Part shown: positions 62,542 to 64,000 of the stretch, in pieces
Numbering within the stretch: the first letter of the stretch is position 1
How the letters are laid out: every line of letters begins with the position of its first letter
Made by a program: the position numbers and the translations under genes
The notes under the pieces: model-generated
Seen by the model: only the letters and a program-made list of their open reading frames with translations
The model's database searches: none
Told to the model about the DNA's origin: nothing
Assembly (NCBI GenBank): GCA_913055605.1
Contig: CAJXKJ010000005.1
Coordinates: forward strand, 1-64,000
Length of the DNA: 64,000 nucleotides
Source of the DNA: an uncultured Euryhalocaulis sp.
Lineage (GTDB): Bacteria > Pseudomonadota > Alphaproteobacteria > Caulobacterales > Maricaulaceae
Direction: 5' to 3'

Positions 62542-62913
62542 TCAGGCGGCCGCGTCGCCGCCCTGCATCGCCTTGGCCAGATCGAGCAGCCGGCGGCGCG
62601 GCTGTTCGTCGAGCTGGTAATAGACGCGCACCAGCTCCAGCGTTTCCCGGCGGGTCAGCATGTCGGCGGCCGGAGCGGATTCGCCGCTCGGCTCGTCGCT
62701 CAGCCCTTCATAGAAATAGCCCACCGGAACGTTCAGGGATTCGGAGAGCTGGAAGAGCCGGGCGGCGCTGACGCGATTCGCCCCGCATTCGTATTTCTGG
62801 ATCTGCTGGAAGCGCACGCCGACCTTGTCGGCGAGCTGTTGCTGGGTCAGCCCCAGAAGCCGCCGGCGGCGGCGCAGCCGCTTTCCAACATGATAATCAA
62901 TTGCGCTGGTCAT
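62542..62913 (-). CDS. XRE family regulator, PraR-like
   Basis: The 123-residue protein begins DYHVGKRLRRRRRLLGLTQQQLADKVGVRFQQIQKYECGANRVSAARLFQLSESLNVPVGYFYEG, the alphaproteobacterial XRE type that includes PraR/PhrR regulators of Rhizobium. A C-terminal helical part (RRETLELVRVYYQLDEQPRRRLLDLAKAM) would dimerise it. It lies next to, and divergent from, the tandem sRNA genes whose promoters carry TTCGCA-N2-TGCGAA palindromes. Whether it binds these sites is untested. Confidence 0.9.
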   Translation of the reverse strand: MTSAIDYHVGKRLRRRRRLLGLTQQQLADKVGVRFQQIQKYECGANRVSAARLFQLSESLNVPVGYFYEGLSDEPSGESAPAADMLTRRETLELVRVYYQLDEQPRRRLLDLAKAMQGGDAAA

Positions 62914-63046: not shown

Positions 63047-63087
63047 TGCGATTTCGCACTTGCGAATTGTGCGGTGCACCATATAGT
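63047..63087 (+). promoter_or_regulatory. Promoter and operator of candidate sRNA 1
   Basis: TTGCGA (63060-63065) and TATAGT (63082-63087) are 16 bases apart, a good -35/-10 pair. The 14-bp palindrome TTCGCACTTGCGAA (63053-63066) overlaps the -35. TGCGATTTCGCACTTGCGA (63047-63065) is repeated exactly in front of sRNA 2. Confidence 0.7.
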
Positions 63088-63094
63088 CAAAGGC

Positions 63095-63181
63095 GTTGCG
63101 GCGCGAGCCGCTTGCCCGGGTTCGGGCGTTTCCTCCCTATTGACTTCCGCCGCGCGGCCTACCGCGCGGCGGTTCTTTTTT
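63095..63181 (+). ncRNA. Candidate small RNA 1 of a tandem pair
   Basis: Predicted start G63095, about 7 bases after the -10; predicted length 87 nt. Two short hairpins come first (GCGGC-GCGA-GCCGC and GCCCG-GGTT-CGGGC). A single-stranded linker GTTTCCTCCCTAT follows, which contains CCTCC, the complement of a Shine-Dalgarno sequence. A terminator closes the gene: CCGCCGCGCGG (63147-63157), loop CCTA, CCGCGCGGCGG, then TTCTTTTTT. The first 46 nt are identical to sRNA 2. No convincing coding frame. Probably an antisense-type regulator of translation. Confidence 0.7.
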
Positions 63182-63262
63182 GTCCGCTAGTTGGCGGCTT
63201 TCAGCCCCTGGCGATTTCCGCGGGCGCGCGGGGATTTTCCACAGCCTGTCGCCGTCCGCGCC

Positions 63263-63311
63263 TTCGCACCTGCGATTTCGCACTTGCGAGAAATCCCGAT
63301 CACGATATAGT
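63263..63311 (+). promoter_or_regulatory. Promoter and twin operator of candidate sRNA 2
   Basis: TTGCGA (63284-63289) and TATAGT (63306-63311), again 16 bases apart. Two 14-bp units stand back to back: TTCGCACCTGCGAT (63263-63276) and TTCGCACTTGCGAG (63277-63290). The second overlaps the -35. Confidence 0.7.
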
Positions 63312-63317
63312 TGAGTT

Positions 63318-63403
63318 GTTGCGGCGCGAGCCGCTTGCCCGGGTTCGGGCGTTTCCTCCCTATGAACTCCGCCGCGCGGCATCCGCGCGGCGGTTTCTTT
63401 TTC
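63318..63403 (+). ncRNA. Candidate small RNA 2 of a tandem pair
   Basis: Predicted start G63318; about 86 nt. The core GTTGCGGCGCG...CCTCCCTAT (63318-63363) is identical to that of sRNA 1, including both hairpins and the CCTCC linker. The terminator has the same 11-bp stem (63369-63379 with 63383-63393) with a 3-base CAT loop and a T-run to 63402. The spacer after the linker differs (GAA versus TGACTT). Two separately promoted, conserved copies argue for a real sRNA family. Confidence 0.7.
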
Positions 63404-63451
63404 AGCGATGGAAATAATAAAGAGCGCGGCCCGCTGTCCGGCGGCCAGACT

Positions 63452-64000
63452 CTATTCGGCCGCCAGACTCTGGGCGCCGTCCCGGCCGTGCAGGAGCGCG
63501 GCCCAGTCGATCGCCGCCAGATCCTCCATCACCACGCTCAGCCGCGCGGCCAGCGCGTCGAACGCCCGGGGCAGAGGCTGGACCGCCCGCTCGTCGAGAT
63601 AGAGCGCGCGCGACAGCTCCACCTGGATGGCGTGAACCCCGGCGCGCGGCCGGCCGTAATGGGCGGTGGTGTAGCCGCCGGCATAGGGCACGTTGCGCTG
63701 GACCTGCAGGCCCTGCGCGGCGAAGGCGCGCTCCGCCGCGTCGCTGACCGCCGGATGGCAGGACGCGCCGAACCGGTCGCCCAGCACCACGTCCGGCGCG
63801 CCGCGATGGTCCGCCGCGGGCATGGAGTGGCAATCCACCAGAATGGCCAGGCCGAACCGGCGCCGCGCCGCCTCCAGCCGCGCGGCCAGCGCGCGGTGAT
63901 AGGGCGCGTGAAACCGGTCGACCCGGTCGACCACTTCGGCCAGCGACAGGCGGCGGCGGTGGATCGTCTCCCCGTCCACGGTCAGGCGGGGCGCCACGCC
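63452..64000 (-). CDS. N-formylglutamate amidohydrolase (partial, 5' end outside)
   Basis: The gene ends with TAG at 63452-63454 and continues past the right edge, so about 182 C-terminal residues are seen. Visible are FHAPYHRALAARLEA, ILVDCHSMPA, VLGDRFGASCHPAV, NVPYAGGYTTAHYGRPRAGVHAIQVELSRALYLDE, all characteristic of the FGase family (HutG-type deformylase, Zn enzymes). The enzyme splits N-formyl-L-glutamate to formate and glutamate at the end of a histidine degradation route. Confidence 0.9.
   Translation of the reverse strand, partial: GVAPRLTVDGETIHRRRLSLAEVVDRVDRFHAPYHRALAARLEAARRRFGLAILVDCHSMPAADHRGAPDVVLGDRFGASCHPAVSDAAERAFAAQGLQVQRNVPYAGGYTTAHYGRPRAGVHAIQVELSRALYLDERAVQPLPRAFDALAARLSVVMEDLAAIDWAALLHGRDGAQSLAAE

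Follow-up and report, generated by a model that had tools for sequence, protein, structure and literature searches.

In a 64,000-nucleotide stretch of DNA from an uncultured Euryhalocaulis sp. (the window), two short units lie in tandem and raise the question of which kind of RNA they encode, and of why such an RNA would be present twice. A sequence-only reading had described them as twin small RNA (sRNA) genes joined by a CCUCC anti-Shine-Dalgarno linker, each unit with the same promoter, two hairpins and an 11-bp terminator, within surroundings that have diverged.

Architecture of the twin units

Self-comparison of the window confirmed this description. Positions 63095-63140 and 63318-63363 are identical over 46 nt without mismatch, at an offset of 223, and the similarity between both units drops on either side of this core. 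A 19-nt block, TGCGATTTCGCACTTGCGA, is common to both -35 regions at an offset of 224. The promoter pattern TTGCGA-N16-TATAGT was found twice in the real sequence, against a mean of 0.1 matches in the shuffled region. Both copies fold alike (z-scores of -3.3 and -4.4 for the two units), with two 5-bp hairpins, SL1 and SL2, followed by an 11-bp terminator ending in a U tail, while the CCUCC stretch is left unpaired. The proposal of twin sRNA genes with an anti-Shine-Dalgarno linker is thus supported. Coordinates of all features are given in Table 1.

Table 1. Features of the tandem sRNA locus and of its neighbor genes, in window coordinates.
Feature	Position	Strand	Basis
XRE-type HTH regulator gene, divergent neighbor, kept in several relatives	62542..62913	-	
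Palindrome TTCGCACTTGCGA over copy 1 -35	63053..63065	+	
Copy 1 promoter TTGCGA-N16-TATAGT, sigma-70-like	63060..63087	+	Pattern search
PhaR/AniA-type box TTGTGCGGTGCA in copy 1 -35/-10 spacer	63067..63078	+	Motif from PMC12542648
alphaR8 sRNA copy 1, from its inferred start through the U tract	63095..63181	+	Covariance match, fold
Copy 1 hairpin SL1, GCGGC-GCGA-GCCGC	63098..63111	+	Predicted fold
Copy 1 hairpin SL2, GCCCG-GGUU-CGGGC	63114..63127	+	Predicted fold
Copy 1 alphaR8 10-mer UUUCCUCCCU, anti-Shine-Dalgarno	63129..63138	+	
Copy 1 intrinsic terminator stem-loop, 11 bp	63147..63172	+	
Palindrome TTCGCACCTGCGA upstream of copy 2	63263..63275	+	
Palindrome TTCGCACTTGCGA over copy 2 -35	63277..63289	+	
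Copy 2 promoter TTGCGA-N16-TATAGT, sigma-70-like	63284..63311	+	Pattern search
alphaR8 sRNA copy 2	63318..63404	+	Covariance match, fold
Copy 2 hairpin SL1, GCGGC-GCGA-GCCGC	63321..63334	+	Predicted fold
Copy 2 hairpin SL2, GCCCG-GGUU-CGGGC	63337..63350	+	Predicted fold
Copy 2 alphaR8 10-mer UUUCCUCCCU	63352..63361	+	
Copy 2 intrinsic terminator stem-loop, 11 bp	63369..63393	+	
N-formylglutamate amidohydrolase (FGase, PF05013) gene, convergent, continues past the window; usual alphaR8 neighbor	63452..64000	-	

Assignment to the alphaR8 family

Copy 1 matched the RF00519 (suhB/MmgR) covariance model at 63107-63187 with 41.8 bits, above the gathering cut-off of 41 bits, and copy 2 at 63330-63407 with 39.6 bits, 1.4 bits under it (E=1e-6 in a 551-base stretch). 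The alphaR8 sRNAs are characterized by a single-stranded 10-mer, UUUCCUCCCU, located after a hairpin, by a Rho-independent terminator and by linkage to an FGase gene in most species (PMC12559287). All three traits were found here: in both copies the 10-mer lies downstream of a hairpin and is single-stranded by predicted fold, a Rho-independent terminator occupies the 3' end, and the convergent gene downstream encodes an FGase (PF05013, E=1.6e-45). On account of covariance score, 10-mer and synteny, both units are very probably alphaR8 sRNAs (RF00519 suhB/MmgR/SisA) with the general anti-Shine-Dalgarno mechanism. Regulatory RNAs of this family are known from throughout the Alphaproteobacteria. 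The RF00519 match begins inside the 3' half of SL1, which indicates that the Rfam model does not include the conserved 5' hairpin. Elsewhere in the genome, a third RF00519 match (C29, 29.7 bits) and a core match (C34:30276) were rejected, lacking the 10-mer, or the upstream hairpins and terminator.

The lead of the sequence-only reading was instead a new sRNA family of the cuckoo/CcsR type, which the CCUCC motif and the small size would fit. SorX and SorY likewise bear CCUCC, but their models scored far under their cut-offs (best 24.6 bits for SorX, RF02784, cut-off 46.6; best 26.9 bits for SorY, RF02651, cut-off 111). Cuckoo/CcsR-type RNAs sit downstream of a DUF1127 gene, and no such neighbor was found among the genes flanking this locus, which encode the XRE regulator and the FGase. 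RF00519 identity, the alphaR8 10-mer and FGase synteny also speak against this kinship; as to family, this reading is refuted, and it retains next to no probability.

The AbcR (alpha-r15) sRNAs, which are also paired and show partial homology with suhB, come closer in arrangement, AbcR1 and AbcR2 being tandem sRNAs with CU-rich anti-Shine-Dalgarno motifs like the window pair. They were set apart by the description of the Sinorhizobium meliloti RNAs, which carry two anti-Shine-Dalgarno motifs, measure 114-120 nt and lie beside lsrB (PMC7143759), whereas the window RNAs carry one such motif, measure about 87 nt and lie beside the FGase gene; Rfam matches within one clan collapse to the best. An AbcR identity is hence very improbable.

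Within alphaR8, SisA-D of Caulobacter crescentus resemble the window copies by the 10-mer UUUCCUCCCU, the upstream hairpin, the terminator and the presence of multiple copies per genome, and sisA also by its FGase neighbor (PMC12559287). However, the Caulobacter copies are dispersed and have unrelated promoters, whereas those of the window are adjacent and have promoter elements in common. MmgR of S. meliloti (alphaR8, RF00519) has a PhaR/AniA box, CAATTGTGCACCGCAGCATTA, in its promoter, but is present in a single copy vs two in the window.

Locus and conservation among relatives

The tandem pair occupies the usual slot of alphaR8, between a divergent XRE gene and a convergent FGase gene, with copy 1 as far from the XRE gene as an alphaR8 gene usually is, and copy 2 close to the FGase gene. 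Several relatives, the congener G001 among them, have retained this XRE(-)-alphaR8(+)-FGase(-) order, and the XRE-type regulator is conserved beside alphaR8 in part of the order. Among 80 FGase loci of named genomes, 48 have an alphaR8 core on the strand opposite FGase, 47 of them about 60-215 nt downstream of it; two cores were present at 0 of the 80.

A lack of conservation in sister species had been set beforehand as an observation that would refute a functional sRNA family; conservation was found. When 20 genes, 18 of them from relatives, were aligned, GGCGTTTCCTCCC proved almost invariant, and the hairpin-hairpin-10-mer-terminator layout, unrecognized in the sequence-only reading, is the normal alphaR8 layout, seen in nearly all of 82 relatives despite widely differing SL1 sequences. 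This count comes from individual folds, used instead of RNAalifold on a MAFFT alignment, which mis-paired the 10-mer because SL1 and SL2 were misaligned. In the bacterial family to which the window belongs, most genomes lack the exact alphaR8 core, including many with phaR (a gene present in 48 of 99 genomes of this family), which may reflect loss or divergence of the sRNA there.

Tandem alphaR8 arrays

Certain alphaR8 genes are direct neighbors of one another (PMC12559287). With a search limited to similar spacing, adjacent copies were detected in 4/385 genomes, belonging to two genera, one of which (g93) has triple arrays (L213-L215, in G452, G580 and G677) with spacings of about 290 and 230 nt. 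As in the window, the g93 copies are adjacent, roughly 230-290 nt apart, and their promoter boxes differ, but there are three of them, in another genus and family. Since the one congener compared, G001, has a single alphaR8 copy, the doubling would be lineage-specific, or the second copy may have been lost in the congener. The find is real, well supported and mostly ordinary, the pair belonging to a known family and being arranged in tandem, which is less common; what is unusual is the doubling itself and the different control elements before the two copies.

Promoter boxes of the two copies

AniA (PhaR) represses mmgR of S. meliloti; its binding to CAATTGTGCACCGCAGCATTA within the mmgR promoter was seen by EMSA, and the motif has the core YGCRNYGCR (PMC12542648). 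A box of this type, TTGTGCGGTGCA, sits at -55 in the copy 1 promoter, while a search for YGCRNYGCR returned none in the promoter spacer of copy 2. The motif occurs at a fixed place, -64 to -44 from the core, in 62/82 relatives vs 0.32/82 in shuffled upstream sequences, a ratio that is not a probability given the kinship shared by the relatives. New here are the fixed place of the box in most alphaR8 promoters and its presence before copy 1 and not copy 2. It can be proposed, tentatively, that the copies differ by PhaR control, copy 1 having the box and copy 2 being without it.

A wider palindrome, TTCGCA-N2-TGCGA, lies near both promoters, once at copy 1 and twice at copy 2, and a box of this wider spacing replaces the PhaR-type box in some relatives. 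These palindromes might bind PhaR or another regulator. As both copies carry them, the missing box of copy 2 need not mean that PhaR control was lost. In the genome, TTCGCA-N2-TGCGA has 15 strand matches at about ten places vs 0 in a reversed control (C2:21662, C4:23878, C5:63053/63263/63277, C15:8415, C34:14265, C60:1725 and others; L197-L211). Sites lie near genes for phaZ (TIGR01849, 611 bits), pyruvate carboxylase and 3-hydroxyacyl-CoA dehydrogenase, and also near FMN-dependent dehydrogenase and typA-like genes. The palindrome is a possible operator of a regulator of central carbon or polyhydroxybutyrate (PHB) metabolism. The same genome encodes PhaR, Hfq, phaZ, phaB-like and phasin-like genes; an acetoacetyl-CoA reductase gene is divergent from phaR with box-like sequences in between, and the phasin-like gene (a 90-aa fragment, Phasin_2 below cut-off) lies near another PhaR-type box.

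Two rival accounts of the doubling were considered. Redundant copies may have been kept just to raise sRNA output under the same control, as the identical 46-nt core, the same promoter hexamers, the common 19-nt -35 block and the equivalent terminators would suggest; yet the -35/-10 spacers of the two copies have diverged and the conserved PhaR-type box is kept in copy 1 only, so that dosage is a plausible account, if somewhat less than probable. Alternatively, only one copy would be functional and the other decaying. Copy 2 does lack the PhaR-type box and has a slightly lower RF00519 score, but its 46-nt core and promoter hexamers are unchanged and its 11-bp terminator is complete although the surrounding bases have diverged, which makes decay improbable.

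Proposed mode of action

In the proposed mechanism, a trans-acting alphaR8 (MmgR/SisA) sRNA gene would have been duplicated in tandem at its ancestral locus, in a lineage-specific manner. Each copy would be transcribed from its own promoter into an RNA of about 87 nt, predicted to consist of SL1, SL2, the single-stranded UUUCCUCCCU and the terminator with its U tail. By homology, the 10-mer, assisted by Hfq, would pair with purine-rich ribosome-binding sites and lower translation or stability of the mRNA; for SisA, target pairing was demonstrated by mutation and reporters (PMC12559287). Since the copies match exactly through their 5' part, 10-mer included, the same mRNAs should be targeted by either one. 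In Caulobacter, the most closely examined alphaR8 targets are TonB-dependent receptors. In the window genome, a search for GGGAGGAA-N-ATG returned 43 sites vs 2 in a reversed control, a count that mainly reflects strong Shine-Dalgarno sites, and hence no target is claimed.

The copies would probably differ in timing instead. Copy 1, if PhaR binds its box, would be repressed without PHB and released as granules form, and copy 2 has no such box. Most likely, the copies would differ in transcriptional control rather than in targets, the sRNA being tied to PHB or carbon status. A more specific version, in which the duplication split control so that PhaR (PHB granule state) governs copy 1 while a different regulator acts on copy 2 via TTCGCA-N2-TGCGA, is possible but rather unlikely; if true, two metabolic signals would drive one target set.

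These results place an apparent orphan in a characterized sRNA family, and the PhaR/AniA-type box of the alphaR8 promoter, known from EMSA in S. meliloti, recurs over many alphaproteobacterial genera. With identical pairing regions and different promoter boxes, the tandem pair offers a clean natural setting in which to test why sibling sRNAs are retained by bacteria.
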